Shown: positions 40,843-63,892, counted from the first letter of the stretch. The stretch: 64,000 nucleotides of DNA from Bacteroidota bacterium (GCA_014382445.1 JACNJS010000084.1:2089-66088); one strand, 5' to 3'. Numbers and translations are program-made. Notes: generated by a model from the letters alone, not told the origin.

Positions 40843-40853
40843 TTTTATCAGTT

Positions 40854-44375: not shown

Positions 44376-44387
44376 CACGAAATTTTA

Positions 44388-44505
44388 TCTCTCGCAAAGC
44401 CACAAGGACGCAAAGGAAAAATAATTTAGATATAAGAAAAATAATAATGTTGTATTCAACAGGTTGCGACAGTTAAAAACTTAGCGTCTCCGCGGCTTTG
44501 AGAGA
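44388..44505. repeat. Inverted repeat TCTCTCGCAAAGCC...GGCTTTGAGAGA
   Basis: Left arm 44388-44415 (TCTCTCGCAAAGCCACAAGG then ACGCAAAG) pairs imperfectly with the right arm 44480-44505 (CTTAGCGTCTCCGCGGCTTT then GAGAGA). It fills the gap between ygeY and ygeW. This GCAAAG-GCGCAAAGACGC type of palindrome is a familiar dispersed repeat of Bacteroidota. Confidence 0.65.
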
Positions 44506-44520
44506 AAATATATATACCAT

Positions 44521-45708
44521 ATGAACATAAAAGATAGAATTACAATACTTAACAATCTTGAAACAAAGCTTTTCAAAAACGACTTCCTCCTTACATGGGA
44601 AAAAAGTGATGATGATCTGAAAGCAATACTAGAAATTGCCACCATACTAAAACAAATGCGAGAGGAAAACATTTCACCTCGAGTTTTTGACACAGGACTT
44701 GCTGTTTCCATTTTCAGGGATAACTCAACACGAACACGTTTTTCATACGCTTCTGCCGCCAATCTTTTGGGATTAGTTATTCAGGATATGGATGAAACAA
44801 AGTCACAAATTGCACATGGCGAAACTGTTAGAGAAACAGCAAATATGATTTCATTTTTAACCGATTTCATTGGAATTCGCGATGATATGTATCTGGGCGA
44901 AGGAAACAAATACATGCGAGAAGTTGCCTCTGCTTTGGACGAAGGATTTGAAAAAAATGTATTGCCATCACGTCCTGGAGTTGTAAATCTTCAATGTGAT
45001 ATGGACCATCCTACACAATCGATGGCTGATCTTCTTCATTTAAAAAATGAGTTTGGTTCGCTTGAAGCATTAAGAGGTAAAAAAATTGTAATGAGCTGGG
45101 CATACTCACCAAGCTATGGAAAACCTATGTCGGTACCACAAGGAATAATTGCATTGATGACAAGATTTGGGATGAATGTTGAACTGGCATATCCCGAAGG
45201 ATATGATCTTATTCCTGAGATAGTTGAATTAGCTGCAAAAAATGCTAAAGAAAGTGGTGGATCGTTTAATGTTGGTCATGATATGGAAGATGCCATAAAA
45301 GATGCCGATATAGTTTATCCTAAAAGTTGGGCACCTTATCATATTATGGAGCAGCGTACACAACTACTAAAAAACAAGGATGCCAAAGGACTTGCCGAAC
45401 TTGAACAACTTGCATTACTTAATAATGCAAAATTTAAAAACTGGGAATACACCGAAGAAAAAAGAAAACTTACAAAAAACGGAGATGCACTTTATATGCA
45501 TTGTTTACCTGCCGATATTTCGGGAGTTTCGTGTAAAGAGGGAGAGGTAGAAGGTGATGTTTTTGAGAAATACAGAATAAAAACTTATCATGAAGCCGGT
45601 TACAAACCTTATATTATTGCAGCCATGATGTTTGCCAATAAGTTTGAGAAACCTGCTCAAGTTCTGCAGAGTATTTTTGAAAAAGGATTGAAGAGAGTTA
45701 GGTATTAG
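44521..45708 (+). CDS. ygeW: Knotted carbamoyltransferase YgeW
   Basis: 395 aa, of the aspartate/ornithine carbamoyltransferase superfamily. The carbamoyl-phosphate motif is SIFRDNSTRTRFSYASA, with DMDHPTQSMADLLHL, DADIVYPKSWAPYH and MHCLPADISG further on. It is longer than ATCase/OTCase (about 310-340 aa), as is typical of the knotted YgeW group. In the purine cluster it is believed to work in the phosphorolytic direction, splitting a ureido compound into 2,3-diaminopropionate-type amine and carbamoyl phosphate, from which ATP can be made. No carbamate kinase is in the window. Confidence 0.92.
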   Translation: MNIKDRITILNNLETKLFKNDFLLTWEKSDDDLKAILEIATILKQMREENISPRVFDTGLAVSIFRDNSTRTRFSYASAANLLGLVIQDMDETKSQIAHGETVRETANMISFLTDFIGIRDDMYLGEGNKYMREVASALDEGFEKNVLPSRPGVVNLQCDMDHPTQSMADLLHLKNEFGSLEALRGKKIVMSWAYSPSYGKPMSVPQGIIALMTRFGMNVELAYPEGYDLIPEIVELAAKNAKESGGSFNVGHDMEDAIKDADIVYPKSWAPYHIMEQRTQLLKNKDAKGLAELEQLALLNNAKFKNWEYTEEKRKLTKNGDALYMHCLPADISGVSCKEGEVEGDVFEKYRIKTYHEAGYKPYIIAAMMFANKFEKPAQVLQSIFEKGLKRVRY

Positions 45709-45843
45709 CTTTATTAATATTCCAAATATTCTATACTTAAAATGGCGCACAACCTTTTAAATCCATCCGTTGTCACTATTTTTATATTAGATTTGCATGC
45801 TTATCAAAAAAATATTTTAATTATCAATAAAATAATTATCTTA

Positions 45844-47808
45844 ATGAAACATTTCTTATTATCTATTTCAATTCTGTTAATTTCCACGTTTTCTTTTTCG
45901 CAAATCAATAATGATTTAAACATTGAATACAAATGTTCACACAGTGCCCATCAAATAAATAAAAACTTAAGTTTTGACATATACAATTGGCAGAGTGAAT
46001 ATCTTGAGGACTATGATGTAACATTCTATTTTCTGGATATCGAGGTTTCTAACACAACGATATATATTAATGGCAACACAACAATAAATGGTGTTGCATT
46101 AGTTAACTTAGACACTTTTGCTATTGAACTAATTCCGGAGCAAACCATTACGCAGTTATTATTTAATGGTGTGGAATACACAACTTATCAACGGGATGGA
46201 AATAATGTTATCGTTCCTGTAAATGAAATTTCGGCGGGCTCATCATTCACGGCTCAAATATTCTATAACGGACAACCTCCAACAGGAGGGTTTTTTGCCG
46301 GTGTTACAACTGCCACTTCTGGTGCCTGGGGTAAGGATGTTACATGGTCATTATCCGAACCATTTGCAGCTTCCGATTGGTTTGCTGTTAAGCAAGATCT
46401 TGAAGATAAGGCTGATTCGGTTTGGGTTTTTCTTACAACTGACTCTACTAATATGGCAGGTTCGCAGGGTTTGTTAACAAATATGGTTGATGTTGGAAAC
46501 GGCAAAACAAGGTATGAGTGGAAATCAAATTATCCAATTGATTACTACCTTATTTCATTTGCTGTAGCAGAATATCAAGAATATAATATTTATGCGCATC
46601 CCGAAGAAATGAACGGTGATTCTATATTAATCCAAAATTTTATATACGATTCGCCAGGATGCCTTGAATATTATCAATCAGATATTGATGAAACAGCTCC
46701 CATGATTGAACTTTTTTCTGATTTATTTATTCTATACCCTTTCTGGCAAGAAAAATATGGCCATTGTTTAACCCAACTTGGTGGCGGTATGGAACATCAA
46801 ACAATGACTACAATAGGTGGGTTTCCATTTTGGTTAGTAGCACACGAATTAGGTCATATGTGGTTTGGAGATAATGTAACCTGTGCTACATGGAGCGATA
46901 TTTGGATTAATGAGGGCTTCGCAACTTATTCCAACTACCTGGCCGAAGAATTTTTACACGGCTGGAGTAGTGCCGTTTCCTTTATTGTTAATAAACAAAA
47001 TAGCGCAATGTCATCTCCTGGTGGCAGCATATACATACCTGAAAACCAAATATATCCCGGAAATGAATGGAGAATATTTGATAGTAGGTTATCATATAAT
47101 AAAGGTGCTGTTATTATTCATATGCTACGACATGAAATTCAGGATGATGAATTATTTTTTGATATTATGGAGACTTTTCAAACAGACTATACTGATAGTA
47201 CAGCAACAGGCGAAGATTTTAAAAATACTGCCGAAGATGTTACAGGAATGGATTTTGACCAGTTTTTTGATCAGTGGTATTATGGTGAAGGATATCCAAT
47301 ATTTGATATTGAGTATTATTACTTAAATGGAACAAATTATTTTACTTCGTTGCAAACAACCTCTTCATCAACTCCATTTTTTGAAATGTTGATGGATTTT
47401 AGATTGTATTTTGAGGATGGCTCTGATACATTAATTTCTTTCTACCAAAGTGATAACCTTGTTGAGTTTTCAGTAGAAACAGGAAAAGAGGTGATGAATA
47501 TCAATGTTGACCCTAATAATTGGACAATGGAACATTCAGAATTTAGTGTTTCTGTTGAGAAAACACAAACTCCTGTAACTTTTAAGCTTGGTCAAAACCA
47601 ATTAACTGATGTTATAACTCTGTATTTTTCAAATACTAAATATGGCAACAAGGAGGTTGTAATAACTGATATTTCGGGAAAAATTGTATATACAGGGCAA
47701 ACTTCCAACTCAAAGTTAAATATTAATACCTCATTTTTAAAACACGGTATTTATGTAATAAGAGCCTCTGATGATGGGCACTCATTTGTGAAAAGGTTTA
47801 TAAATTAG
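45844..47808 (+). CDS. Secreted M1 metallopeptidase with type IX sorting domain
   Basis: 654 aa from the ATG at 45844 (MKHFLLSISILLISTFSFSQ, a signal peptide); an upstream in-frame ATG at 45742 adds 34 residues that are not peptide-like. The gluzincin site is H334-E-L-G-H338 with the third ligand E357 (WINEGFATY), and the aminopeptidase GGGMEHQ motif precedes it. The last 70 residues (VVITDISGKIVYTGQ and HGIYVIRAS, ending VKRFIN) are a type IX secretion sorting domain. It is exported to the cell surface or medium to trim peptides. It lies inside the purine island but has no evident tie to it. Confidence 0.93.
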   Translation: MKHFLLSISILLISTFSFSQINNDLNIEYKCSHSAHQINKNLSFDIYNWQSEYLEDYDVTFYFLDIEVSNTTIYINGNTTINGVALVNLDTFAIELIPEQTITQLLFNGVEYTTYQRDGNNVIVPVNEISAGSSFTAQIFYNGQPPTGGFFAGVTTATSGAWGKDVTWSLSEPFAASDWFAVKQDLEDKADSVWVFLTTDSTNMAGSQGLLTNMVDVGNGKTRYEWKSNYPIDYYLISFAVAEYQEYNIYAHPEEMNGDSILIQNFIYDSPGCLEYYQSDIDETAPMIELFSDLFILYPFWQEKYGHCLTQLGGGMEHQTMTTIGGFPFWLVAHELGHMWFGDNVTCATWSDIWINEGFATYSNYLAEEFLHGWSSAVSFIVNKQNSAMSSPGGSIYIPENQIYPGNEWRIFDSRLSYNKGAVIIHMLRHEIQDDELFFDIMETFQTDYTDSTATGEDFKNTAEDVTGMDFDQFFDQWYYGEGYPIFDIEYYYLNGTNYFTSLQTTSSSTPFFEMLMDFRLYFEDGSDTLISFYQSDNLVEFSVETGKEVMNINVDPNNWTMEHSEFSVSVEKTQTPVTFKLGQNQLTDVITLYFSNTKYGNKEVVITDISGKIVYTGQTSNSKLNINTSFLKHGIYVIRASDDGHSFVKRFIN

Positions 47809-47949
47809 TATTTGATTTCAGAATTAAAAGAAAGCACAATACTCTCTGAATTAATTAATCAAAATTTTGATAAAGAATAGACAATATTAATTGAAAAAAC
47901 CACCTACAATTCCTGCTTTATACCTCAAAAATGATGTTACCTTGCGGTA

Positions 47950-49032
47950 ATGAAAAATGAAATGATAAGTAACGACTTAAAAGTAAATAGACCCGAACCA
48001 ATAAAATCGGGAGTTGAAATAGCATCTTTTATACAAGAAACAGACATTCAAAAAACTATTAATGCTTTACTTGCAGGTGAGTACATTTTAATAAAGGAAT
48101 TTTATAGCAATGGATTGGTTCTTTTAAATGAATTGCAGTTGTACCTCAAAAAAATGCATCCCAATGAATCTTTTCAGGAACAACGTGAGTTTCGCTCGGA
48201 ATATAGAAAATTATCTAACCTCATATTAATACAAGTTAAAGAACATAAATTAACCGCTAAAAAAGCCCCATGGATTGGATGGTTAGAAAAATTATATCCT
48301 GAAACGAATGATTTTCTTTTGCCTTTTCCTCAAATTCAAGGTTTAAATAGTGCTTGGCAATGGTATATTAATGGAGTTATAATCCCTGTAATAAGAAACA
48401 AGGTTCATCCTTATTATGGGGTTTATTTCCCAACACGTTTTGAGCATTTACAACTTTTCGATAATTGGTTAGTACGTTACAAAGGACCAAAAAAGTCAGC
48501 AATTAATGTAGGGATTGGAAGTGGCGTACTTTCATTACTATTGGTGAAGCATGGGTTTCAAAAATCATTTGGCACAGACATTAATCCCAATGCGATTATT
48601 GGTTTAAAAGAGTCAATGGAAGGAACGAAGTTATCTCGCAAGATAGAAATTGATTATGGGCATTTATTCGGTAAGTGGGAGAAACAAACCGAACTGATAG
48701 TATTTAATCCGCCATGGTTACCTGCCTCACATGATTTGGACCGCCTTGATGAAGCGATATATTATAATGACAAACTCTTTCCTGATTTTTTTGAAGAAGC
48801 AAAGAAACGACTGCTACCAGAAGGTAGGATTGTGCTACTATTCTCAAATTTAGGGCAAATAACCAACGCGACGAAAGAGCACCCAATTGAAAAAGAACTC
48901 CTTAATGGAAGCCGTTTTGAATTAGACAAATGTCTTAAAAAATCAGTAAAAGCTGCTTCAGAAAAAACAAAAAGAACCCAACATTGGCGTTCCACCGAAG
49001 AGGTGGAGTTATGGGTGTTAAAGCATAAATAA
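47950..49032 (+). CDS. SAM-dependent methyltransferase with NPPW motif
   Basis: 360 aa. The N-terminal 170 residues are not recognised. The C-terminal half is a Rossmann methyltransferase: AINVGIGSGVLSLLLVK (SAM motif I), FGTDINPNAI (acidic motif II) and LIVFNPPWLPA, the NPPx motif of amino-methyltransferases acting on nucleic-acid bases or protein Gln. It resembles PrmC/RlmG-type small-subunit enzymes but not closely enough to name. It lies alone between the M1 peptidase and the convergent dihydropyrimidinase. Confidence 0.75.
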   Translation: MKNEMISNDLKVNRPEPIKSGVEIASFIQETDIQKTINALLAGEYILIKEFYSNGLVLLNELQLYLKKMHPNESFQEQREFRSEYRKLSNLILIQVKEHKLTAKKAPWIGWLEKLYPETNDFLLPFPQIQGLNSAWQWYINGVIIPVIRNKVHPYYGVYFPTRFEHLQLFDNWLVRYKGPKKSAINVGIGSGVLSLLLVKHGFQKSFGTDINPNAIIGLKESMEGTKLSRKIEIDYGHLFGKWEKQTELIVFNPPWLPASHDLDRLDEAIYYNDKLFPDFFEEAKKRLLPEGRIVLLFSNLGQITNATKEHPIEKELLNGSRFELDKCLKKSVKAASEKTKRTQHWRSTEEVELWVLKHK

Positions 49033-49110
49033 AGCAGGAAGAACCAATTTTAAAGATTCCTCCAATGCCATTTAAACAACATTAAGAGTTGTCAAGTGTT
49101 GTGAGATTTT

Positions 49111-50478
49111 TTACTTTCTTTTTATAAGTTTCCCCCTTTTCATTCCACAAAATCGCTTTGCATTTTCAACAGCAATTTCTCCATTACAAATAACATATTC
49201 CGGATCTCCAAAGGTATAAAGCCCTTCATAAATATTATTATCACAATTTTGATGATGAGTTTTAGCCGAAATTATATTTTCTTTTTCCGGATTCCACACA
49301 ACAATATCAGCATCTGAACCCTCAGCAATAATACCTTTTGAAGGAAACAGATCGAATATTTTTGCAGTATTTGTGGATGTTAATGCAACAAACTGGTTAA
49401 GGGATATTTTGCCTGTAAGAACTCCATAAGTATATATCAAGGCGAGCCTGTGCTCAACTCCGCCAGCTCCATTTGGAATTTTTCTGAAATCATATTTACC
49501 ATTTTCTTTCTGTTTATTAGTAAAGGGGCAGTGGTCGGTACCTATGGTTTGAATTGTTCCGTTACTAATACCTTCCCAAAGTGCTTTCATATCCTCTTTT
49601 TTCCGTAATGGAGGGCTCATTACAAATGGCGCTACATTATCGAAATCCCCATAATACTTCGAGTCATCTAAAAGCAAATATTGGGGGCATGTTTCTGCCA
49701 TTACTTTCTGTCCTTTTTTTTGAGCTGCACTAATATATCTCAGCGATTGCTTTGTAGAAACATGGACAATATACAATGGGCAGTCTGCCTCTTTAGCTAA
49801 GTCAATTGCTTTTTTTACAGCACCGGCTTCCAATCTTGCAGGTCGGGACAAAAGATGATATTCGGGGCTTAGTTTGTTTTCGGAGGCAAATTTGTTTCTT
49901 AATTCTTCAATATCGTCGCCAAGCTCACAATGAACCGTTACCATCCCTCCTTCATTACCAACCGCTTTCATAACCTTCAATAACACATCATCATTTAAGC
50001 CAACCCTATCCTTATATGCCATATAAACTTTAAATGATTTCAGTCCAATACCAATACAATTTTTTATTTCGTCCTCAAGCGTATTTCGCCACTCAATAGG
50101 GCTAACATGCAGCGAATAATTTGTCAGGCTATTTTTTGCTTCCAGCTTACGTTTTTCGATAGCATCACTAAGAGTTTCGCCTTTTTGTGGAGTTACGAAA
50201 TCGATTATTGATGTTGTTCCGCCGAACAAGGCTGCTACGCTTCCTGATAAAAAATCATCGGAAGAAAACCCGGCGAATGAAGGCAGATGCATGTGTACGT
50301 GAGGGTCAATTCCTCCGGGTAATACGTAACAACCAGAAGCATCAATAACTTTATCATGTTTCGAATCCGGTATGAGGTTCTCACTAATCCTAATGATCTT
50401 GCCATCCCTACACATAACATCTGCTTTTATGCTGTTATCAGCATTTATTATCTTTCCGTTTTTTATGATTAGTATCAT
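49111..50478 (-). CDS. hydA: Dihydropyrimidinase / hydantoinase
   Basis: 455 aa from the ATG at 50476-50478; a reading to 50523 adds 15 residues inside a repeat and is rejected. Binuclear amidohydrolase with metal ligands DPHVHMHLP, the carbamylated Lys in SFKVYMAYK, TVHCELGDD, YIVHVSTKQSL and the Asp of GTDHCPF. It hydrolyses the cyclic amide of dihydropyrimidines or hydantoins. In the purine-degradation cluster (HyuA position) it is expected to open a hydantoin-like intermediate. Its strand is the one shared by ssnA, the Se-type dehydrogenase and ygfK. Confidence 0.92.
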   Translation of the reverse strand: MILIIKNGKIINADNSIKADVMCRDGKIIRISENLIPDSKHDKVIDASGCYVLPGGIDPHVHMHLPSFAGFSSDDFLSGSVAALFGGTTSIIDFVTPQKGETLSDAIEKRKLEAKNSLTNYSLHVSPIEWRNTLEDEIKNCIGIGLKSFKVYMAYKDRVGLNDDVLLKVMKAVGNEGGMVTVHCELGDDIEELRNKFASENKLSPEYHLLSRPARLEAGAVKKAIDLAKEADCPLYIVHVSTKQSLRYISAAQKKGQKVMAETCPQYLLLDDSKYYGDFDNVAPFVMSPPLRKKEDMKALWEGISNGTIQTIGTDHCPFTNKQKENGKYDFRKIPNGAGGVEHRLALIYTYGVLTGKISLNQFVALTSTNTAKIFDLFPSKGIIAEGSDADIVVWNPEKENIISAKTHHQNCDNNIYEGLYTFGDPEYVICNGEIAVENAKRFCGMKRGKLIKRK

Positions 50479-50519
50479 CGGTATTGTAAATAATTTTAAC
50501 AAAAATTCTAATCTCGATC

Positions 50520-50603
50520 TCATTTCGAACCCTATTCATCTTGAGAGAAATCCTCTGAAAACGTATTATGTTCAAAAGAGATTTCTCCCTCCGGTCGAAA
50601 TGA
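50520..50603. repeat. Dispersed palindromic repeat TCATTTCGA...GAGAAATC
   Basis: Arms TCATTTCGAACC (50520-50531) with GAGAGAAATC (50543-50552) and their near-complement GATTTCTC (50580-50587) ... CCGGTCGAAATGA (50591-50603). The text GTCATTTCGACCGGAGGGAG with AGAAATCTC is a repeat seen in intergenic regions of many Bacteroidota. Here it supplies the last eleven or so codons of the YgjV-like gene. Confidence 0.7.
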
Positions 50604-50961
50604 CAAAAAAAGTTATAGTATTCATTTCGGGTTTGTACACAAATCCCGGGAAAAAAATTTGAATTTCATCATTATGATAAGATAAAAACTTTAACAGATA
50701 TTTATTATCGCTCCTTATTTCGAGAGTGTCAAAAAGATTACTCTTTGTATAGATTTTTATCAAGTAAAAAAGATCAACCGAAACAATAAAACTATTCAGA
50801 ACCATTACCGGGAAAGCTCCAATTAGCATTCCGTAAATGGCAAAAGATAATGCACCAAAAAGATTAATCCATCTAAATTTCACAATCGAATTCATAGTCA
50901 TCGAAATGGCAATTACACCCGATGCTATATATCCAAACCAAAGTAATATATTTGAATCCAT
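50572..50961 (-). pseudogene. YgjV-like membrane protein, 3' end truncated by a repeat
   Basis: 129 aa ORF. Residues 1-70 are three transmembrane helices of the YgjV type (GYIASGVIAISMTMNSIVKF, NLFGALSFAIYGMLIGAFPV), then a short soluble part. Bacteroidota homologues as I know them continue into a GNAT-like acetyltransferase domain after the KPEMNTITFFV-type strand. Here the frame runs into the dispersed repeat and ends ISTGGRNLF. The missing C-terminal domain and repeat-encoded tail point to a broken gene, although the membrane part could still be made. Confidence 0.6.
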
Positions 50962-51037
50962 GTCTTATTTTAAAGGTTATTATTGGTAATTTTAAATAAA
51001 TGTGTCACACTATAACAAGTTTAAGTAAGAATGTGTA

Positions 51038-52309
51038 TTACAGTTTATCCCAAAGCCTGAGTGATTGCTCTTTAGTGAATTTATGGATTTCTTCTTCATC
51101 AATTGTTTGTATAATCTTATCCTTTACAATTAATTTACCATTCGAAATTACATGTTGAACATGATTTGATGTCAAACCAAAAATAGTGTGTCCTAAAAAG
51201 TTTTCTTCATTTATTTCAGTTGGAGAATCGTAATCCAAAATCACGATATTATTGTCACCATCTCCACTAAAATTATTCTCACTCAAATAATTATGAACTT
51301 TTCTAAACCGGTAGTAAGCAGAAGCGAAATCAATTTCATCATAATTCTGTCCAACAAAATATGAAGCCTTAGTGCTTCTAAGCATATCGCTATGCATTCC
51401 GTCGGTGCCAAGCATTATGTTATTGCCCAACCCACTTGAATTAAAATATCCTACCTTATTATTCAAATTACTTTCTGTATTCTGAACGACAAACGCCGGA
51501 GAATTTTTAATAATCATTCGTTCCTCACCATTAATATGCAAACAATGCGCAAGTATTGTTTTTGATGAATTAAGTACGCCGAAATCATTTAGCCTTTCAA
51601 CAACTCTACTACCATAATTTTCAATACAATGTTTCTGATCATAGTCATCCTCTGCAACATGTATATGAATACCTGAATTGGTTTTTTGCATCAGTTCAAC
51701 AGCCTTTTTTAGGGTAGCATCTCCAACCGTAAACGAAGCATGTAATCCAACTAATCCCTGGTTGTTTTTCAAATATGCTTCTGTCTCGTCCAAACATTGC
51801 TGCGCTTTATCCTTACCATCCCTATCTGTAATTTCATAACAAAGCAGATGACCAATACCAACTTTTTCAAAAGCATTAGCAATAACTTCGAGCGAACCAA
51901 CTATGAAATTAGGAGATGCATGATGATCGATTACAAAAGTAGCTCCAGCCTTTGCGCATGCCATTGCTGTAGCGAGTGCGCTGGCTTCAATCATATCTTT
52001 ATCAAGTGCTTTATCGATGTTCCACCAAATATATTTTAATATTTCAAGAAAATTGGATGGTTTCTTTTTGGGAGCAGGCATCCCTCTGGCTAAAGCCGAA
52101 TAGGTATGATGGTGGCCAACTGCGAACGACTTAGTTACAAACTTGCCGGCACAATCAATAATTTCATCTTTTGAAGAAATTGAAATTTCATCAAAATTAT
52201 CATGAAACTCAAGCGTGCCGTTTTTTCCTTCGCCAACTCGTATATTAGTTTTTGTGAAGATGAGATTCTTCCAGTTTATAAACGAAACATTTTTAAGTAT
52301 AATAGTCAT
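51038..52309 (-). CDS. ssnA: Putative aminohydrolase SsnA
   Basis: 423 aa amidohydrolase. The metal-binding AVGHHHTYSALARGMP and the following KPSNFLEILKYIWWNID are characteristic of SsnA, with HIHVAEDDYD, ILAHCLHI and MLGTDGMHSD completing the site. It deaminates or opens a reduced purine intermediate in the selenium-linked purine-catabolic cluster. It is followed, after a repeat-filled 478-base gap, by the Se-type xanthine dehydrogenase on the same strand. Confidence 0.9.
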   Translation of the reverse strand: MTIILKNVSFINWKNLIFTKTNIRVGEGKNGTLEFHDNFDEISISSKDEIIDCAGKFVTKSFAVGHHHTYSALARGMPAPKKKPSNFLEILKYIWWNIDKALDKDMIEASALATAMACAKAGATFVIDHHASPNFIVGSLEVIANAFEKVGIGHLLCYEITDRDGKDKAQQCLDETEAYLKNNQGLVGLHASFTVGDATLKKAVELMQKTNSGIHIHVAEDDYDQKHCIENYGSRVVERLNDFGVLNSSKTILAHCLHINGEERMIIKNSPAFVVQNTESNLNNKVGYFNSSGLGNNIMLGTDGMHSDMLRSTKASYFVGQNYDEIDFASAYYRFRKVHNYLSENNFSGDGDNNIVILDYDSPTEINEENFLGHTIFGLTSNHVQHVISNGKLIVKDKIIQTIDEEEIHKFTKEQSLRLWDKL

Positions 52310-52787
52310 GTGTCTGTTATTTGCATATAATAATCGCTTGATTTGTCATCCTGAGAACCAAGACCCGGAAAAGGGGGCGCACATAGTGTGATGACAAAAA
52401 TTCCAAATCTCAAAAATCATGAATTTTGTTTTATCATCGGATTTATCGGATTAAACGAATTTTCGTTTTTCGCATTGCGAAAAACTAATCTGCTAAATCC
52501 GTTAAATCCGATGATGGTTCTTTTATATTTTTTCATTAACTATTCGACATTCAAAATGTACTTGATAATTATCTAATTCAAGACCCGCCGGGTTTTTTCC
52601 AACCCGCCGGGTCTGATTTCATTTCATTTGGTAATTATCTAATATACAATATGTTCATATAAGTTGTCATTGGTAACAGAGTGAAGGATCTATTTTGAAA
52701 TACAATTGAGATTCTTAACTCGCTGCCCGCATATCCTCCGCAAATTCGTTCAGAATGACAAAAAGACGTTATTGCAAATATACCGAT
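52310..52787. other. Repeat-filled spacer between ssnA and Se-type xanthine dehydrogenase
   Basis: 478 bases without a supported gene. It holds a nested palindrome at 52433-52515 (arms ATCATCGGATTTATCGGATTA and its near-complement, with inner hairpin TTTTTCGCATTGCGAAAAA at 52466-52484), a perfect 14-bp inverted repeat AGACCCGCCGGGTT / AACCCGCCGGGTCT (52581-52594 and 52601-52614), and GTCATCCTGAG / TTCAGAATGAC fragments at about 52348 and 52750. A 62-codon ORF here is repeat-derived. A ssnA upstream promoter should lie at the left end. Confidence 0.7.
52581..52614. repeat. Perfect 14-bp inverted repeat (ACCCGCCGGGT)
   Basis: AGACCCGCCGGGTT, a 6-base T/C spacer, and AACCCGCCGGGTCT. A very stable GC-rich hairpin in AT-rich surroundings. 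With no T run after either arm it is more likely a dispersed repeat than a terminator. Confidence 0.75.
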
Positions 52788-55334
52788 TCATCTTTTCAAC
52801 GGCAACTTAAACCTCTTAACACCATCAAAAGCATAAAAAGCATTGGCCACTGCAGCAGCTGTGGGGACAAGTCCAATTTCTCCAATGCCTTTAGCACCAT
52901 AGGGTCCCACAGGATCTTTTACCTCAACTCCTTTCACAACTATTTCGGGAGTTTCGTGAGCGCGAAGGATTCCTAATTTCCTCATTTTGTCGTGAACCAA
53001 AAATCCATCTTTCATTGGCAATTCTTCGGTAAGTGCATAACCTAATCCCATGTGAACTCCACCTTCAATCTGACCTTCAAAAAGCATTGGGTTCATAATT
53101 TTTCCTGCATCGTGTGCAGCTACAACTTTCGATATATTTCCTTCATCGTCAAGTATACAAAGCTGTACAGCATATCCATACGAATAATGAATTATTGGAT
53201 TATTCTTACTTGACCCCGGCTTACTTGTCCAGTCGCACACAAACTCACCTTTGTAAGTTTTACCAGATAATTCTTTTAAGGACTTCGATTTTAAATCCGA
53301 TTTCAAACCTCTGGCGGCAACTATAACGGCTAGTCCAACTAATGCCGTTGCTCGTGACGATGTGGTCATTCCTGTTTTAATTTGAGCATCAGTATCAACA
53401 ACAACCTCAATTATATCAGGATCAACTCCAGTTTCCTCACAAAGAGTTTGTAATGCCATATTATGAACCCCTTGCCCCATCTCGGTCCAGCCATGTTTAA
53501 GAACAATATTATTATCAGAAATAATATCAATAATTACTTTTGACTCATCATTCATTCCGTTACCAATACCGGAGTTTTTTATTGCACAAGCAAGTCCTGA
53601 AAATTTGGCATTAATAAAATCATCTTTAACAGCTTCCAGACACGCCCTTATTCCAACACCTGCCAATCTTTGTCCGGTTGAAGTAGTAAGCCCGTTAACA
53701 AGAGCATTATCCCATCTAAACTGCCATCTGTCAAAGCCAGCTTTTTTGCAGATTTCGTCGATACAACTTTCTAAAGCAAAGGTAATTTGGTTAACTCCAA
53801 AACCACGCATCGCACCACTGGGGATATTATTAGTGTAAACAGTTTGAGCTTCAATGTCAATTTCAGGAATATAATAACCTCCTGAAGCATGACCGGCCAC
53901 ACGTTCCATAACTTTCATTCCAACGGAAGCATAAGCCCCGGTATCGCCAATAGCCCTTAGTTTGAGTGCTGTTAGTTTACCGTTGTTGTCAGCCCCAACC
54001 GATATATCCATAAACACAGGATGTCGTTTTGGATGTAACCTTATTGATTCTTCACGCCTAAGAGTAAGTTTCACTGGTTTGTCCAACAAAAATGCAAACA
54101 AAGCAGTTTGTCCCTGCACACTCAAATCTTCCTTACCCCCAAAGCCACCTCCATTTGGCACTAAAATTACACGCACTTTTTCTTCGGGCAAACCAAGTAT
54201 CAAAGCAACCTGCCTTCTGTCTTCATAAATCCCCTGACTCTGGCTAAAAAGTTCTATGCCACCACTTCCATCTGGTTGGGCAATAGCAGCTTCCTTTTCC
54301 ATAAAACCATGCTCAACACGCTGAGTTTCATATTTTCCGGAGCTTACATAAGTTGAGGCACTTAGTGCTACATCTGCGTTACCAATTGTGAACTGTGTAG
54401 TTTCAAAACTATTAGGTCTTTCAGGATGAATTCTATCTCCTCCAATTGCTTTAAATACATCGGTTATTGGTTCAAGAACCTGATATTCAATTTCAATCAA
54501 TTCAATAGCTTCACGGGCAATACGTTCAGAATCAGCAACCACACCGGCAAGTACATCGCCTATATAATTTGTAGTTTGACCTTCAGCAATTATTATCGGC
54601 CAATCATGGATAATTAGACCAACTTTCTGTTCGCCCGGGATATCCTTTGTAGTAAAAACATGGTTTACACCCGGATGTTTCTCGGCTTTTGTTGTATCAA
54701 TTTTAATGACTTTTGCTTTGGGATGATCGCTAAATTTCAATGCGGCATAAAGCATTCCATCAATGTGGATATCATCTACAAAATCTCGCTTTCCAATGGC
54801 AGTATTATATGCATCATATTTAGGATGAGAAACTCCAACTTTGCCGGAAGTTATATTAATTTCCAAATTTTCATTTTTACTGATGGCTTCACCGGCACAT
54901 ACAATTGCTTCTTCAATTTTTTTGTATCCCGTACAACGGCATAAATGTGGTTTAATGGCTTTTTGAATTTCCGCAATTGTTGGCTTAGGATTGTTTTGAA
55001 GTAGTACTTTAGTTCGACTAATAAATCCGGGACTACAAAAACCACACTGAACGGCTCCTTTATTTACAAAAGCTATGGCGATAGTATCCAGGACGTATCC
55101 AGGAAATCCTTCAGGTGTAAAAATCTCAGCATCTTTCAGTTTACTCATTTTGGTTACACACGAAAGCATTGCCTTACCATCAATTTCAACAGTGCAAGCA
55201 CCACATGCCGCCTGACCCGAGCAACCATCTTTTACAGAAGTAATATGTTTGTCGAGTCGTAAATATTCTAACAACGATCTATCAGGACTACCATCATAAT
55301 TTTGTATTTCTCCATTTAATTTAAAAGAAATCAT
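52788..55334 (-). CDS. Selenium-dependent-type xanthine dehydrogenase (fused 2Fe-2S and Mo)
   Basis: 848 aa. The N-terminal ferredoxin domain (DGCSGQAACGACTVEIDGK; C38, C44, C47 with a five-residue first gap) is joined to a second 2Fe-2S domain (CGFCSPGF, CRCTGY) and then the Mo-binding domain: NGGGFGGKEDLSVQG, GAMRGFGVNQ, GWTEMGQGVHN, and the catalytic Glu in GAKGIGEIGLVP. This single-chain layout without an FAD domain is that of the Se-dependent molybdenum hydroxylase group. Selenium in these enzymes is a labile cofactor, not selenocysteine, and no in-frame UGA is present. Its start overlaps the stop of the threonine synthase-like gene (ATGA). Confidence 0.88.
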   Translation of the reverse strand: MISFKLNGEIQNYDGSPDRSLLEYLRLDKHITSVKDGCSGQAACGACTVEIDGKAMLSCVTKMSKLKDAEIFTPEGFPGYVLDTIAIAFVNKGAVQCGFCSPGFISRTKVLLQNNPKPTIAEIQKAIKPHLCRCTGYKKIEEAIVCAGEAISKNENLEINITSGKVGVSHPKYDAYNTAIGKRDFVDDIHIDGMLYAALKFSDHPKAKVIKIDTTKAEKHPGVNHVFTTKDIPGEQKVGLIIHDWPIIIAEGQTTNYIGDVLAGVVADSERIAREAIELIEIEYQVLEPITDVFKAIGGDRIHPERPNSFETTQFTIGNADVALSASTYVSSGKYETQRVEHGFMEKEAAIAQPDGSGGIELFSQSQGIYEDRRQVALILGLPEEKVRVILVPNGGGFGGKEDLSVQGQTALFAFLLDKPVKLTLRREESIRLHPKRHPVFMDISVGADNNGKLTALKLRAIGDTGAYASVGMKVMERVAGHASGGYYIPEIDIEAQTVYTNNIPSGAMRGFGVNQITFALESCIDEICKKAGFDRWQFRWDNALVNGLTTSTGQRLAGVGIRACLEAVKDDFINAKFSGLACAIKNSGIGNGMNDESKVIIDIISDNNIVLKHGWTEMGQGVHNMALQTLCEETGVDPDIIEVVVDTDAQIKTGMTTSSRATALVGLAVIVAARGLKSDLKSKSLKELSGKTYKGEFVCDWTSKPGSSKNNPIIHYSYGYAVQLCILDDEGNISKVVAAHDAGKIMNPMLFEGQIEGGVHMGLGYALTEELPMKDGFLVHDKMRKLGILRAHETPEIVVKGVEVKDPVGPYGAKGIGEIGLVPTAAAVANAFYAFDGVKRFKLPLKR

Positions 55335-56569
55335 GATAATAGTTTTTTCAGGTTTTCAAGAGTAGGCCAAATTGAATCAGGTACATTTAATAATCCGCTA
55401 ACGGATCTTAAATCTTTTAATCCGCTACCTGTTAATAGTACTACATTATTTGAATTATCAGGTAATTTATTAGCTTTCTTATAGGAAAGTAATCCTGCGA
55501 AAGCAGCGGCAGCAGCAGGTTCAGCAAACAATCCTGTATTTTTAGATAGTATTGATGAAGCCTTCAGTATTTCATCATCAGTAACAGAAATATATTCTCC
55601 GTTATAATCATGGATATATTTTTGGGTCATGTAGAAATTACGAGGAATATCAACAGAAATTGAATCGGCAATAGTTGTGCTTTTCTTTATCTCAAATGTA
55701 GCATTATCAATATTTCTAACAAGATTATCACTTTTTTGAGATTGCACACCAACTATAATTGGCATATTATCAATTATCTGAAGTTTGAGCAAATCTTCAA
55801 ACCCTTTATAAACGCCCGAAATAATCACGCCATCGCCAACAGGTACAAAAATCCGGTCGGGAACAGTAAAATTCAACTGTTCAAGAAGCTCGAAAGCGAC
55901 AGTTTTTTTTCCTTCGATAGTAAGCGGATTAAAAGCAGTGTTACGGTTGTACCAGCCAAATTCTTTGGTAGCCTTTATACTAAGGTCGAATGTATCATCA
56001 TAAGTGCCTTTCACAGGAATTATTGTGGCACCATGCATTAAAATCTGAGTTAGTTTCGCTATGGGTGCTGATTCAGGAACAATTATAATTGCCTTTTGTC
56101 CTTGGGCAGCACAAATCCCCGCTAATGATGAACCGGCATTTCCTGTTGATGCTGCCACAATTATATCCCATCCCTTTTCTTTAGCATACGCTGAAACTAC
56201 TGCAGAAGCCCTATCTTTAAATGAATATGTTGGATTTTGGGAATCGTCTTTCAGGAAAAGATTAAATGATAGTTTTAGATTACCTATTCTGCGAACTTCG
56301 TACAAAGGAGTCTGTCCAACTTTCAAATTAGGTAGGCTTTCCAGTTTGCTAATTGGCAATAAATCTAAAAATTTATTTTTACTGAGTTTTTCAAAGTTGA
56401 CACCTAATTCAATTAGTCCTAAATAATCATAGTTCGTTTTCAGAACACCTACTGGAGGTAGATCTAAAGAGTTTAGTTTGGTACAATCAGGACATAGATA
56501 TGTTACTTGTGATTCATTATAAGTAGCACCACAATCAACACATTGGTAATGGAATTTTGAATTATTCAT
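55331..56569 (-). CDS. Threonine synthase-like PLP enzyme
   Basis: 412 aa from the ATG at 56567-56569; a TTG five codons upstream is unlikely. Fold-type II PLP enzyme with an N-terminal zinc-ribbon-like CxxC pair (YQCVDCG and YLCPDCT), the PLP lysine in PTYSFKDRASAVV, the phosphate-binding AASTGNAGSSLAG and LLTGSGLKDL. This is threonine synthase-like, but it is coupled by a 4-base overlap to the Se-type xanthine dehydrogenase and neighbours ygfK. A catabolic beta-elimination role, possibly on 2,3-diaminopropionate, is a reasonable but unproven alternative to threonine synthesis. Confidence 0.75.
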   Translation of the reverse strand: MNNSKFHYQCVDCGATYNESQVTYLCPDCTKLNSLDLPPVGVLKTNYDYLGLIELGVNFEKLSKNKFLDLLPISKLESLPNLKVGQTPLYEVRRIGNLKLSFNLFLKDDSQNPTYSFKDRASAVVSAYAKEKGWDIIVAASTGNAGSSLAGICAAQGQKAIIIVPESAPIAKLTQILMHGATIIPVKGTYDDTFDLSIKATKEFGWYNRNTAFNPLTIEGKKTVAFELLEQLNFTVPDRIFVPVGDGVIISGVYKGFEDLLKLQIIDNMPIIVGVQSQKSDNLVRNIDNATFEIKKSTTIADSISVDIPRNFYMTQKYIHDYNGEYISVTDDEILKASSILSKNTGLFAEPAAAAAFAGLLSYKKANKLPDNSNNVVLLTGSGLKDLRSVSGLLNVPDSIWPTLENLKKLLS

Positions 56570-56675
56570 AATGATAATTTCCAACTATTTACAAAATTAA
56601 ATCTTGGCGTCAATGCGTCATTGTAATATATATTTCATCCAAGACGCCATGGCACAAAGTAATTTTTGTTCTACT

Positions 56676-58145
56676 TTAAATATACTCCTTAATAACTCCT
56701 GTTCTTTCATTAAATTCCATTATTTTTTCATCCCAATCATCAACTTTTGCATAGCGCGATTTCCAATAATTTTCATCATACCATTGGGCATTTAACTCTT
56801 CAACTGTTTTACCTTGTTGCTCAATCCATGTGAAATATTTGAGATTATGCATACGTTTTTTCTGATAATAATTCATCTCGATCATATGATCGGTTGATAA
56901 GCTGAGCAAATCGGCATCAAAACTTACGGCAGCAACTCTATTAGTAAATTTTCCATGAATTTCATTTTCTTCTGCTAAACGTGATTGATACATATCCATC
57001 GAATCGGTGGCTACCGAAAACACAACATCATTCTCGTTCATTTCGTAATATTTTGCAAGTTTAATAGAGCCCATTAAATTAGCTATTGATGAAATACCGA
57101 ACAGTTTTAATTTATCAACTAAATCAGGATTAATATTTAATTCATTCTTCAGATAATCAATTCCGGCACTTTCGTTAAAAAGTCGCATTAATCGGATATT
57201 TGGATTATCGTCAATACCAGCAACCAAATCCATATTTCGAATATTATGAATCCATGGAACATGCTTGTCGCCAATGCCTTCAATGCGATGTTCGCCATAA
57301 CCATTTTCCAATAAAGTTGGGCATTGCAGTGCCTCACCTGCACACACTTTAATATTTGGATAAACCTCTCTTAAATAATCAGCACTACCCAATGTTCCAG
57401 CTGAACCTTGTGTTAAAAACATTCCTGTAAAACGGTCATTATCTTTTTTTACAGAATTAAAAACTTCTTCCATTGCCGGGCCGGTAACAGCATAATGCCA
57501 CATTGGGTTTCCAATTTCTTCAAATTGGTTGAGATTAACAATTTCATCACCACGCTCAGCAAGAAGCTCCTTTACCTTATCGTAGATTTCTTTAACATTA
57601 CTTTCGGTTCCTTGTGTTGCAAAAACCTCAGCACCAACTTTATGAAGCCAGTCGAAACGCTCTTGCGACATACCTTCAGGCAACACAGCAATCGACTCAC
57701 AGCCCAGCAAATATGAATCGTAAGCTCCACCACGACAATAGTTACCTGTTGATGGCCAGAGAGCTTTTTGTCGAGTTGGGTCGAAACGACCGGTAATCAG
57801 TTTTTCCACCAAAGGACCAAATGTTGCACCAACTTTATGAGCACCTGTGGGGAAATATTTTCCTATAAGTAATATAATTCTGGCTTTAACACCGGTTAAT
57901 TCTGATGGTAATTCCAAATAATTAACGTTACTAAAACCCCCACCAAAATCAACAGGGTCATTTTTCCAATTAATGCGAAATAAATTAAGTGATTTCAAAT
58001 CCCATAATCCAATATTTTTTAGTTTATCAACTATCTTTTCCGGGATGAGTTCAGGATTTCGCATTTGTTTATATGTTGGCAATATTATATGCCTTTCGCG
58101 ACATCTTTGAATTGTGTTTTCTAATATTTTTTCTTTAGTTATCAT
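56676..58145 (-). CDS. Fold-type II PLP-dependent enzyme of unknown substrate
   Basis: 489 aa. The PLP lysine is in FPTGAHKVGATFGPLV, and the phosphate loop is ALWPSTGNYCRGGAYDSYL, with LTQGSAGTLGSADYL as a second glycine-rich loop. It belongs to the TrpB/cysteine synthase fold but has long extensions at both ends (about 100 residues before the first motif and 130 after ESAGIDYL). It lies between ygfK (125-base repeat-bearing gap) and the threonine synthase-like gene, all leftward. It may be an ammonia-lyase or beta-replacement enzyme in the purine pathway. Not assignable to YgeX on the motifs seen. Confidence 0.72.
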   Translation of the reverse strand: MITKEKILENTIQRCRERHIILPTYKQMRNPELIPEKIVDKLKNIGLWDLKSLNLFRINWKNDPVDFGGGFSNVNYLELPSELTGVKARIILLIGKYFPTGAHKVGATFGPLVEKLITGRFDPTRQKALWPSTGNYCRGGAYDSYLLGCESIAVLPEGMSQERFDWLHKVGAEVFATQGTESNVKEIYDKVKELLAERGDEIVNLNQFEEIGNPMWHYAVTGPAMEEVFNSVKKDNDRFTGMFLTQGSAGTLGSADYLREVYPNIKVCAGEALQCPTLLENGYGEHRIEGIGDKHVPWIHNIRNMDLVAGIDDNPNIRLMRLFNESAGIDYLKNELNINPDLVDKLKLFGISSIANLMGSIKLAKYYEMNENDVVFSVATDSMDMYQSRLAEENEIHGKFTNRVAAVSFDADLLSLSTDHMIEMNYYQKKRMHNLKYFTWIEQQGKTVEELNAQWYDENYWKSRYAKVDDWDEKIMEFNERTGVIKEYI

Positions 58146-58270
58146 TCTTTAGTTACTTTATTACTAATCAATTATTATTTCCTATATACTTTTACACCAT
58201 ACCTTTATACCCTATCCCTTTATACCTCTATTCCTTATATCCTTTATACCCATTATACTCTATACAACTT
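58146..58270. repeat. C-rich complement of the GGTATAAAGGTATAGGG repeat
   Basis: About 58190-58265 reads ATACCTTTATACCCTATCCC and TTTATACCTCTATTCCTTAT on the plus strand; on the coding strand it is GGTATAAAGG-rich. Same family as 22335-22354 and 43119-43165. It separates the 489 aa PLP gene from ygfK. Confidence 0.6.
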
Positions 58271-61200
58271 TTATCCATAAAAACTAACAGCCCCCTGCAG
58301 TATCAAACTCATTTCAGCAGCAATTGTTAAATCCTCTTCAAAGTTAATTTTTTCTTTTAAGTCAATTTCAAAAAATCGCAGAGTTGTTCTATTTGCTTTT
58401 AAGGTATAAAGATCGGTTTCCAACACTGAATAATCATTCAAATTATAGTACCGGAATAATCGGTCATTTTGATAATATAATAGCTCTGTAATTTCAATAT
58501 CAACATCCAAGAAGTATCCATCTTTATTTTTTTCAAATTCTTTTCTCACAAGATAAAGATGTGGTTTATCCAAATATGGGCTACCCGAAGTAGGACAAAA
58601 TGTTGTGCAGTTACCACATTGATTACACCAATCGGCAATATGCAATATTTGATGTTTTTGTACTATCTCAAAAGTATTTCCTTCAGTTAATTTATGGTTT
58701 CCATCAACAATTTTTATAATCTGAGTGTTAATTTTAACAGGCTCAGTATTATAAGAATGGAATGCAAGGTTAGGACAGACTGTGGCGCAAATATTACAAA
58801 CCTCATCACATAGCAAACATCGTGAAGCCTCCATTATCGCTTCTTTAGCAGTTAATGTCGTGCTTACCAAGTTGAAATTTTTTCTGTTGTGCAAACTTGT
58901 TTCCCGCACAGATTGGGGAAATAACCTACTAGCTTTTTTAATCATTAACAGATTATAATTCTGCTCTTTTCGTGGTAATGCATTATTAGTGGAGAAATCT
59001 ATATTGGCAATCTTAATAATTTCCTGAGCAGCTTTCCGTCCATCACCTATCGCGTTAATTGCGGTTGAAGCACCTCTTAAGGCATCACCACCAATAAATA
59101 CATTAGGAATTTTTGTTTGATAGCTTCCTTCCTTTGTTACAAGATTATCAACATCCATAAAATCAATATCCAGATTTTGACCAATAGCAGGAATAACTGT
59201 GTCGGTGAGTAAATCAAATTCAGATCCGTAAATTTCGACCGGTCTTGCCCTTCCTGAATCATCCTTTTTTCCGAGTTTCATCTTCCTGCAAGTAATCGAA
59301 AATACTCGAGTATTTTTTGAATTAATTCTGAGAGGTGCAGTTAGTTCAAGAATATTAATTCCCTCTTTAATAACAGCATTAATTTCACCAAAATCGGCGG
59401 GCATCTGTTTAATGGTTCTCCTGTAAATCACGGTCACTTTTCCGTTTTCGCCAACCAAGCGGTAAGCTGTACGAGCTGCATCCATGGCTGTGTTTCCACC
59501 ACCGATTATCACAATATTTTGTCCTATTTCAGTATCTTGCCCTTCTTTAACTTTAACTAAAAAATCAAGAGGATCAAGTACTCCTGGTGATTCAATACCT
59601 TCAATTAACAAAGGTTCTGAAACTTGTGCGCCTATTCCAATATAGATATAATCACTATCCTTCCTAATCCTGTTAAATTCATTTAAAAATATTGGATGGT
59701 TATATTTAATAACAACTCCGGTAGATTCTATTTTTTTAATGTCAATATCTATAGCTTCATTGGTTAATCTAAATGATGGTATAGCACCTGAAACCATTCC
59801 ACCCGGCTGTGTTTTCGATTCATAAACCACCACATCCATTCCTGCTAAAGCGAGAAAATAGGCACAAGATAGTCCGGACGGTCCTGCACCAATTATTGCT
59901 GCTTTTTTGTTTAATCCATTAACAAAGTTTTTCTTTTGAATGATTGTTTTATTATCAGAATTCTCAGAAATAGTTCGTTTTATTTCCCTAATTAGAACTG
60001 GTTTATCGTAATTAATTCGAGTACATTTAGTTTGGCAGAGATGATCACATATCATTCCAGTAGTATGCGGAAATGGATTAGTTTGCTGAATAACTTCTGC
60101 AGCCTTGTCGAATTCACCTTTCGAAGTATAATACATATAATCTGGTATTCCCTGATTTGTTGGGCATGTATCAACACATGGAGCATGGGTACAATCAAAA
60201 TGTTTTAGTTGCCGATTAGTTTTTATGCTTGGGTTATTAAATCCATGTTTTTTATATGCGCTGTTTTCGATCAAATCTTCAACATAATGCTTAAGATTTT
60301 TAAGATAATCGATTTGGGAACAATCGATTTTCATTTTTTCCTTAAGCTCCTCAATATATTGGCATAATCTGCCATATCCGCCCGGCTTTAGTAAATCGGT
60401 ACAAACGGTAACCGGGGCAAGTCCGCAATTAACAACATCGGCAACATTAAAAGCATCAACACCTCCGGAAAAAGAAATATCCAATCCTCCATCAAATTCA
60501 TTCTGAAGCTCATATGCAAGATTAATGGATATTTGATGAAGAGCTCTACCACTCATGTACATCATTTTTTCATGCTCAGGAAATATATCTTTATTATTCA
60601 GACTTTCAAGGGTATTTGTTAATTTAACACTAAACTGAAGGTTGTTATTATCAGCACTTTGCCTAAGGTTTGTAATAATAGATATCGCATCTTTATATTT
60701 CAAATCGTGCTCAAAAGCAATATCCGGAACTATGGTTTCAAAACCTGAATTAACTATTATCTCATTCAACTTTTTTTTCCCGATTAAAGTTGGATTAAGT
60801 TTTATCGCTGTATGAAGTTTTTTTTCAGTAATGAGGTACTCACCTATCTTTTCAATTTCATCCGGCGGACAACCATGCATTGTTGACAATGTAATATTAT
60901 TTGAAATCGTAGGATTGATGGTAATATTAACCACATTGGGATAAATTGACTCAATACTATTAACTTTTTCGGTGATCTCTTTCGATGCATCAGCCATCTT
61001 TTTAAAAAACCACTGCACATTTTCTTTTTGTATTCCATCATAATCATAGCCTACACTCATATTAAATATTACACCAATATCCTTCGAGTTTGCCCACCCA
61101 AATTTATCACTAAGTATGTGAATAATAATCCAAGCATTTAAATATTGATCAAACGACTGTTTAATTTTTAATTCCTGCGACCACTCACAATTATATCCTT

Positions 61201-61513
61201 CATCCTGCATGTCGATACATGGCTTCGAGACTTCAATTTCATCTATTGTTTGTATTGTTTTCAGTTCAATAAATCTGGCTCCTGTTAACCAGGCAGCTAC
61301 AATATTTTGTGAAAGTTGTGTTTGAGGTCCGGCTGCAACGCCGATCGGAGTTTCAAGCAGAGAACCAAATCGCTTAAAGCGAAGAGATTCGTTAAATTTG
61401 GGATTAAAAAACAGTTCTTCGTTAATTCCGAGGATATTCCGGGAACTATCATACTGCTTTAAAATTATATTTAATAACCTGTTTAAGGGAATTAGCGAGA
61501 AAATGTCTGCCAT
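58271..61513 (-). CDS. ygfK: YgfK, purine-pathway iron-sulfur flavoprotein (putative selenate reductase subunit)
   Basis: 1080 aa from the ATG at 61511-61513 (MADIFSLIPLNRLL); a TTG nine codons upstream is rejected. An N-terminal dihydroorotate-dehydrogenase-like barrel (about 1-400, IGVAAGPQTQLSQNI, STMHGCPPDEIEKI) is followed by a 4Fe-4S region (CVDTCPTNQG and CDHLCQTKC), a GltD-like FAD/NADPH module (AAIIGAGPSGLSCAYFLA and IVIIGGGNTAMDAARTAY), and C-terminal ferredoxin motifs (CLLCDEVCNICATVCP and WCNQCGNCTTFCP). In urate/xanthine fermenters YgfK reduces the purine ring so that it can be opened. Divergent from mocA. Confidence 0.9.
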   Translation of the reverse strand: MADIFSLIPLNRLLNIILKQYDSSRNILGINEELFFNPKFNESLRFKRFGSLLETPIGVAAGPQTQLSQNIVAAWLTGARFIELKTIQTIDEIEVSKPCIDMQDEGYNCEWSQELKIKQSFDQYLNAWIIIHILSDKFGWANSKDIGVIFNMSVGYDYDGIQKENVQWFFKKMADASKEITEKVNSIESIYPNVVNITINPTISNNITLSTMHGCPPDEIEKIGEYLITEKKLHTAIKLNPTLIGKKKLNEIIVNSGFETIVPDIAFEHDLKYKDAISIITNLRQSADNNNLQFSVKLTNTLESLNNKDIFPEHEKMMYMSGRALHQISINLAYELQNEFDGGLDISFSGGVDAFNVADVVNCGLAPVTVCTDLLKPGGYGRLCQYIEELKEKMKIDCSQIDYLKNLKHYVEDLIENSAYKKHGFNNPSIKTNRQLKHFDCTHAPCVDTCPTNQGIPDYMYYTSKGEFDKAAEVIQQTNPFPHTTGMICDHLCQTKCTRINYDKPVLIREIKRTISENSDNKTIIQKKNFVNGLNKKAAIIGAGPSGLSCAYFLALAGMDVVVYESKTQPGGMVSGAIPSFRLTNEAIDIDIKKIESTGVVIKYNHPIFLNEFNRIRKDSDYIYIGIGAQVSEPLLIEGIESPGVLDPLDFLVKVKEGQDTEIGQNIVIIGGGNTAMDAARTAYRLVGENGKVTVIYRRTIKQMPADFGEINAVIKEGINILELTAPLRINSKNTRVFSITCRKMKLGKKDDSGRARPVEIYGSEFDLLTDTVIPAIGQNLDIDFMDVDNLVTKEGSYQTKIPNVFIGGDALRGASTAINAIGDGRKAAQEIIKIANIDFSTNNALPRKEQNYNLLMIKKASRLFPQSVRETSLHNRKNFNLVSTTLTAKEAIMEASRCLLCDEVCNICATVCPNLAFHSYNTEPVKINTQIIKIVDGNHKLTEGNTFEIVQKHQILHIADWCNQCGNCTTFCPTSGSPYLDKPHLYLVRKEFEKNKDGYFLDVDIEITELLYYQNDRLFRYYNLNDYSVLETDLYTLKANRTTLRFFEIDLKEKINFEEDLTIAAEMSLILQGAVSFYG

Positions 61514-61588
61514 GATCTTCTTAAAATAACTAAGCAACAAATCTAAATAAAAGATGCGATAATTATATATTTCCTCTATTTTTGACTT

Positions 61589-63196: not shown

Positions 63197-63892
63197 ATGA
63201 AAACATTAGGCCTAATCGGCGGAATGAGTTGGGAATCTTCGGCAGTTTATTATGAACTGATAAATAAAAAAGTAAAGGAGGCTCTCGGAGGATTTCATTC
63301 GTGCAAAAGCATAATGGTTACTGTTGATTTTGCTGAAATAGAGAAATTGCAGCACCAAAATGAGTGGGAGGTATTAGACAGAATGATGGCACATTCGGCA
63401 AAACAGCTTGAGGCGGCAGGGGCAGATATTGTTGTCCTGTGTACAAATACGATGCATTTATGCAGTCATGCCATTATTGATAATATCTCAATTCCTTTCC
63501 TACACATTGCTGAAGCAACGGGTCTGGATATTAAAAATAAGAACTTAAAGAAGGTAGGTTTGTTGGGGACGAAATTTACAATGGAAAAGGATTTTTACAA
63601 GGAGTATATATTAAACAACTTTGGTATTGAGGTGATTATCCCTTCGGATGAGGAAAGGGAAAAAGTTCATAATATAATTTATCAGGAACTTGTTCACGGT
63701 ATGATTAAGAATGATTCAAGGGAAATTTATAAGAAAATTATCAAGAACCTAGAGCAAAGGGGTGCTGAAGGAGTAATACTTGGATGTACCGAAATCCCAC
63801 TGCTAATATCCGATTCGGATGTAGATATACACGTTTTTGATACAACTACGATTCATGCGGGAAAAGCTGTAGAGTGGGCATTATCTGATTAA
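63197..63892 (+). CDS. Aspartate/glutamate racemase-family amino acid racemase
   Basis: 231 aa PLP-independent racemase. The start [19 protein letters not shown] and the two catalytic Cys sites, [14 protein letters not shown] and [11 protein letters not shown], match the broad-specificity Asp/Glu racemase group (YgeA-like). It follows xdhC after a palindrome. Within the purine island it might act on an amino-acid product, but no substrate can be read. Confidence 0.88.

Follow-up and report, generated by a model that had tools for sequence, protein, structure and literature searches.

Two fold-type II PLP enzymes in a reductive uric-acid gene cluster without YgeX in a Bacteroidota bacterium

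The cluster and its two PLP enzymes

We analysed a stretch of 64,000 nucleotides from a Bacteroidota bacterium (GCA_014382445.1, JACNJS010000084.1:2089-66088; the whole stretch is referred to as the window) that carries a reductive uric-acid gene cluster containing two pyridoxal 5'-phosphate (PLP) enzymes of fold type II, here called THRCL and PLP489, and no YgeX. YgeX is the usual last enzyme of this pathway, splitting 2,3-diaminopropionate (DAP) to pyruvate and ammonia. Anaerobic urate degradation was elucidated only in 2023-2025, and the pathway matters medically because of gout. Window proteins were assigned to families by curated NCBIfam cut-offs, and the pathway markers YgfK, xanthine dehydrogenase (XDH), HyuA, YgeW and YgeY all scored above theirs. 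The genes of the cluster are as follows:

43146-44375, plus strand: YgeY hydrolase (PRK13004, 519.6 bits; cut-off 321)
44521-45708, plus strand: YgeW knotted carbamoyltransferase (TIGR03316, 633.8; cut-off 500)
49111-50523, minus strand: HyuA-like hydantoinase/dihydropyrimidinase (TIGR02033, 546; cut-off 393)
51038-52309, minus strand: SsnA-like amidohydrolase (PRK07203, 377 bits; below the cut-off of 444)
52788-55334, minus strand: SeXDH, a selenium-dependent xanthine dehydrogenase-type enzyme (TIGR03311, 884.6; cut-off 830.45)
55331-56584, minus strand: THRCL, a threonine-synthase-like fold-type II PLP enzyme (open reading frame; PF00291, TIGR00260)
56676-58145, minus strand: PLP489, a PLP enzyme with a predicted CysK/cystathionine beta-synthase (CBS) fold, 489 residues (open reading frame; PF00291)
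58271-61540, minus strand: YgfK, dearomatising reductase (TIGR03315, 925; cut-off 835)

A preliminary description, made from the sequence alone, had placed two fold-type II PLP enzymes beside ygfK, and this arrangement was borne out: both open reading frames are present on the minus strand, both proteins match PF00291, and the THRCL stop codon overlaps the SeXDH start codon in an ATGA, as described. For the gene at 51038-52309, SsnA is the best-matching family, under both curated cut-offs (377 against 444; 340 against 455), and the gene is a conserved neighbour of the THRCL-PLP489 pair in relatives.

The same description had seen no YgeX and had named a ygeX elsewhere in the genome, expressed with ygfK, as one observation that would speak against a replacement. 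We found none in the window, and the candidate of a YgeX elsewhere was rejected, as no protein of the genome exceeded the TIGR01747 cut-off of 274, the best match being THRCL itself at 36.9 bits. PLP489 scored 20.5 bits against the same model and so falls outside the family. Like THRCL and PLP489, the YgeX of E. coli is a fold-type II PLP enzyme, found at the end of the urate pathway; unlike YgeX, these two come as a pair, and neither has its TDGNHGRG loop, which reads STGNAGSS in THRCL and PSTGNYCRGG in PLP489. YgeX was likewise not found above cut-off in any of 36 Bacteroidota relatives, including one whose genome is a single contig (G403).

THRCL comprises 417 residues when counted from a TTG, although an ATG six codons downstream is the likelier start. 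It scores 243.7 bits against PF00291 (cut-off 35) and 181.9 against TIGR00260 (thrC; cut-off 167.1), thus qualifying by score as a threonine synthase. Its AlphaFold model (predicted local distance difference test score (pLDDT) 88.5) has the threonine-synthase fold (Z 36-43) and aligns with ThrC of the B. subtilis type (6cgq) over 306 residues (Z 39.3, 36% identity, root-mean-square deviation (rmsd) 1.9), with the PLP lysine motif SFKDR and the STGN loop in common. THRCL differs from ThrC in an extra N-terminal region with a Cys4 (zinc-ribbon-like) motif, in forming a separate clade in the tree (74 sequences, support 0.92) and in its signature. The 68 aligned THRCLs read RN[TAS]x.NP..xEGKK where ThrC reads NSxNPxRxEGQK, and VGDG where ThrC reads PVGNAGN, with ADSI as a further part of the THRCL signature. 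The ThrC form NSxNPxR.EGQ occurs in none of the 68, whereas the aligned ThrC sequences of the B. subtilis type have it with minor deviations. The replaced positions correspond to phosphate-site residues of the Thermus ThrC structure.

A second observation named beforehand as adverse to a replacement was that THRCL might be the only threonine synthase of the genome. In form this is the case, as THRCL is the sole TIGR00260 match above cut-off; as a refutation it fails. No match to homoserine dehydrogenase (PF00742) was found in the genome, compared with 14 of 14 control genomes, and no thrB (TIGR00191) exceeded its cut-off (best 41.9 against 168), so that the organism is apparently unable to make O-phosphohomoserine. 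Moreover, in three relatives (G403, G418 and G413) a canonical thrC adjoins a bifunctional gene of the thrA type, at a distance from THRCL, which is with PLP489; in G403 the adjacent thrC and thrA and the separate THRCL are on the same single contig. Because the substrate genes are missing, relatives carry their own thrC and the ThrC signature is lost in 68 of 68 aligned members, we rejected THRCL as a plain threonine synthase. Its TIGR00260 score notwithstanding, an ordinary threonine synthase that sits here by accident is very improbable, the more so as the gene is ATGA-coupled to that of a purine enzyme.

PLP489 matches PF00291 at 56.4 bits (cut-off 35), and no NCBIfam model comes near its cut-off, the best being cysKM at 96 against 344, which places PLP489 outside the CysK family by score. 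In its predicted structure (pLDDT 88), residues 36-399 align to beta-cyanoalanine synthase and CysK, with a match to 3vc3 (Z 35.3, rmsd 2.5, 312 residues) that points to a CysK/CBS fold. This core is common to CysK, CBS and beta-cyanoalanine synthase (Z about 31-35), but PLP489 differs from them in its low identity (about 23%), its PSTGNYCRGG loop and some 90 additional residues, helical, at the C terminus. Both this loop and the lysine motif FPTG.HK are near-invariant in more than 100 homologues. In the structure search many fold-type II families tied, such that lyase, synthase and racemase are not separable by it. That DAP ammonia-lyase structures were not among the matches listed for THRCL is uninformative.

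Conservation of the pair and exclusion of YgeX

Among Bacteroidota relatives, PLP489 recurs as a family at 55-88% identity. In 19 of 21 PLP489-bearing relatives, THRCL shares the contig or at least the genome with PLP489 and has the same pathway neighbours, and a genome-wide search with a THRCL profile found it in 0 of 12 relatives without PLP489. In about 20 relatives, THRCL and PLP489 sit with YgfK, SeXDH, SsnA, HyuA, YgeW and YgeY. An evenly drawn class sample of 395 genomes, without genus or family mates, gave only weak CysK-type matches for PLP489. A scan of 84,980 species genomes returned at least 592 PLP489 relatives; the best 80 of these (56-88% identity) come from Bacteroidota, Cloacimonadota, Chloroflexota, Acidimicrobiia, Halanaerobiales, Clostridia, Synergistota, Desulfobacterota, Spirochaetota and others.

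Neighbourhoods were counted in other genomes, at 72 usable loci. In 46 of these, PLP489 has THRCL nearby, always on the same strand and with a median gap of 338 bp; 50 contain at least one pathway-type gene, and YgeX is present in 1. The pair also occurs with pathway genes in Cloacimonadota, Chloroflexota, Halanaerobium, Desulfobacula and others. In Halanaerobium kushneri (L141), for example, PLP489, THRCL, YgeY, a carbamoyltransferase, a purine-type permease and XDH stand in a row, and an Anaerolineaceae locus (L131) also has a hydantoinase, an SsnA-like enzyme, a luciferase-family protein and F420-biosynthesis genes (read by eye). The latter set fits the F420 variant of the pathway reported for Chloroflexota (Li et al., PMC12507026). 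The pair is real, co-oriented and conserved across many phyla, in anaerobes that are not closely related.

Clusters in which the two enzymes are separated bear on which of them corresponds to YgeX. In SAR324 (L151) the order is YqeA, YgeW, YgeY, YgeX, PLP489, with YgeX in the position of THRCL and no THRCL in the genome. In another locus (L236), THRCL is back to back with ssnA and a UacX-like gene, with no PLP489 in the stretch. Four clusters (L093, L099, L100 and L117) have PLP489 without nearby THRCL, and THRCL is encoded elsewhere in those genomes. Together, these arrangements favour THRCL as the YgeX equivalent.

We also searched Clostridia for SsnA alone, a query unbiased by PLP489, and read the 30 best places with their flanks. 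YgeX lies beside ssnA in 11, THRCL in 5 and both in 0. This neighbourhood-only exclusion is not significant (0/11 against 5/19, p=0.13). When THRCL was instead sought genome-wide by profile search, with matches checked by motif or best hit, it was present in 0 of the 11 genomes with YgeX beside ssnA and in 10 of the 19 others (Fisher p=0.004, uncorrected for kinship of the genomes).

PLP489 and its surroundings vary. In two draft genomes a single stop codon, TAA or TGA, breaks its frame (L035 in G440; L038 in G413). Divergent relatives (35-37% identity) adjoin THRCL in some Clostridia (L253 in G575, L256 in G747 and L264 in G647), and the one in G647 has the loop STGNFGIG instead of STGNYCRGG. 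Relatives at 42-43% identity are encoded on conjugative plasmids of Rhizobium NXC24 and of Bosea vaviloviae (L050:11962-13461 and L051:11608-18876), in Bosea close to genes for an M20 hydrolase, RidA and a YgeX homologue (38%); these plasmid loci perhaps serve plant diaminopropionate-type amino acids. In Anaerotignum and another Clostridiales (L150:7489-12902 and L140:9920-18784), the pair stands beside dapF and an aminotransferase that resembles LL-diaminopimelate aminotransferase (read by eye), not beside urate genes.

A candidate end of the urate pathway

The evidence leans towards a reductive uric-acid cluster whose last step would be carried out by a conserved fold-type II PLP pair in place of YgeX, with THRCL as the most likely DAP ammonia-lyase. 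The replacement proposed in the preliminary description is supported by comparative genomics, namely the lack of ygeX in this genome and its relatives, the exclusion in Clostridia and the conservation of the pair with pathway genes. Its suggestion that either enzyme could be the replacement does not stand as worded: the two go together, and THRCL appears the better lyase candidate, with PLP489 most likely its partner on the same C3 amino acid. More tentatively, THRCL and PLP489 could be an end of the urate pathway that evolved separately from the YgeX ending and is used in many phyla, splitting D- and L-DAP or making another amino acid.

Judged by gene identity, the upstream route would run from urate to yanthine by the selenium-type XDH, followed by a reduction step by YgfK, ring opening by the SsnA-like and HyuA-like hydrolases, and removal of ureido groups by YgeW and YgeY to yield DAP. 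For the two PLP enzymes we infer substrate, reactions and a division of labour. The THRCL lineage would have split off from threonine synthase with loss of the ThrC phosphate-site signature; THRCL would form the external aldimine of DAP, remove the alpha proton and expel the beta-amino group; the aminoacrylate so formed would go on to pyruvate, with two ammonia released in all. PLP489 would share this C3 substrate, for instance by taking its D isomer, as a D-DAP lyase or a D/L racemase, so that two stereospecific enzymes would do the job of a single non-stereospecific YgeX. YgeX shows equal activity towards L- and D-DAP, HyuA is D-specific (PMC12507026), and the question of which stereochemistry the ureido intermediates have has been raised (PMC12990295). 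Two selective enzymes sharing the isomers between them, or PLP489 acting as a racemase, would account for the presence of two enzymes in place of one. As ammonia-lyase (deaminase) activity is documented for the ThrC enzymes of Thermus and Microcystis (PMC12172450), the evolutionary step from ThrC to a THRCL lyase would be short.

Several observations weigh against this reading. Nine of the 30 Clostridia with SsnA have neither YgeX near ssnA nor THRCL anywhere, with several of these nine stretches ending at contig ends. Exclusion is not absolute, because four genomes carry both YgeX and PLP489 and three of these also THRCL. In 22 of the 72 PLP489 loci no pathway-type gene lies within the stretch examined, and the Anaerotignum pair adjoins dapF, on a contig other than that of ssnA; the role of the pair may therefore be wider than urate. 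Finally, a ygeX could lie on sequence missing from the draft, as the genome is 96% complete and in 97 contigs. That such a gene exists and the pair serves another route is nonetheless a far-fetched combination, given that YgeX is missing in 36 of 36 relatives, G403 among them.

The roles of the two enzymes could also be distributed differently. If PLP489 were the DAP ammonia-lyase, THRCL would do something else, such as racemisation or a reaction on another beta-substituted amino acid. PLP489 does have the CysK/CBS fold of beta-eliminating enzymes, its GNxxRGxA loop resembles GNHGRGVA of YgeX, and it stands without nearby THRCL in L093, L099, L100 and L117. Those four genomes carry THRCL elsewhere, however, L236 has THRCL beside ssnA with no PLP489 nearby, and in SAR324 and on the Bosea plasmid PLP489 is adjacent or close to YgeX, where a second lyase would be needless; we regard this assignment as unlikely. 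Rather less probable is a pathway that does not end in pyruvate, in which PLP489 would exchange the beta-amino group of DAP for sulfide or another nucleophile (or add one to aminoacrylate) to give cysteine or another amino acid, while THRCL would provide or use up the other isomer. In structure PLP489 is closest to beta-replacement enzymes (CysK, CBS, beta-cyanoalanine synthase and O-ureidoserine synthase), which would suit such a reaction, but fold alone reveals no reaction, the window cluster showed no gene that would supply a nucleophile and no sulfur genes recurred in the loci read.

Neighbouring genes and relation to the known pathway

Other genes lie within or near the cluster. Between hyuA and ssnA, a 129-residue protein with hydrophobic stretches (50572-50961, minus strand) has no Pfam or NCBIfam match and is 57-83% conserved at the same position in many relatives. 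A second xanthine dehydrogenase, of the canonical two-gene type (small and molybdenum (Mo) subunits; 39394-43106, plus strand), adjoins ygeY and ygeW, its Mo subunit scoring 800.6 against 849.5 bits. No carbamate kinase (YqeA) was found in the cluster (43146-61540), the part of the genome searched for it; YqeA is present in the clusters of relatives G403 and G418 (L066 and L067). Near the cluster, an aspartate/glutamate racemase-family protein (63197-63892, plus strand; TIGR00035, 228.6 bits against 93.1) is 78-80% identical to proteins next to these genes in three genomes of the same genus (L053, L055 and L063) and could be relevant to pathway stereochemistry. Repetitive GTATAAAGG-like units lie between ygfK and PLP489 (58150-58270, minus strand).

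In YgfK, SeXDH, HyuA, YgeW and YgeY the cluster agrees with the reductive uric-acid pathway of Li et al. 2025 (PMC12507026); its SsnA-like enzyme scores below the SsnA cut-offs, and it differs in having THRCL and PLP489 instead of YgeX. The survey in that study marked YgeX by PF00291 and does not mention "threonine synthase"; because THRCL and PLP489 also match PF00291, a survey of this kind is blind to a replacement of YgeX. We found no description of an alternative end of the urate pathway in the literature searched, which did not extend to the main subscription papers on the pathway. The pair is likely a non-orthologous replacement within a known pathway, which probably has a second ending besides the one described.

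If this is true, uricolytic Bacteroidota and Chloroflexota escape genome surveys with YgeX as the marker, and surveys based on PF00291 merge three different enzymes. The finding bears on the question of the stereochemistry of the ureido intermediates (PMC12990295). It also brings to light PLP489 as a widespread PLP family without assigned function, and THRCL as a candidate case of a threonine synthase turned ammonia-lyase.

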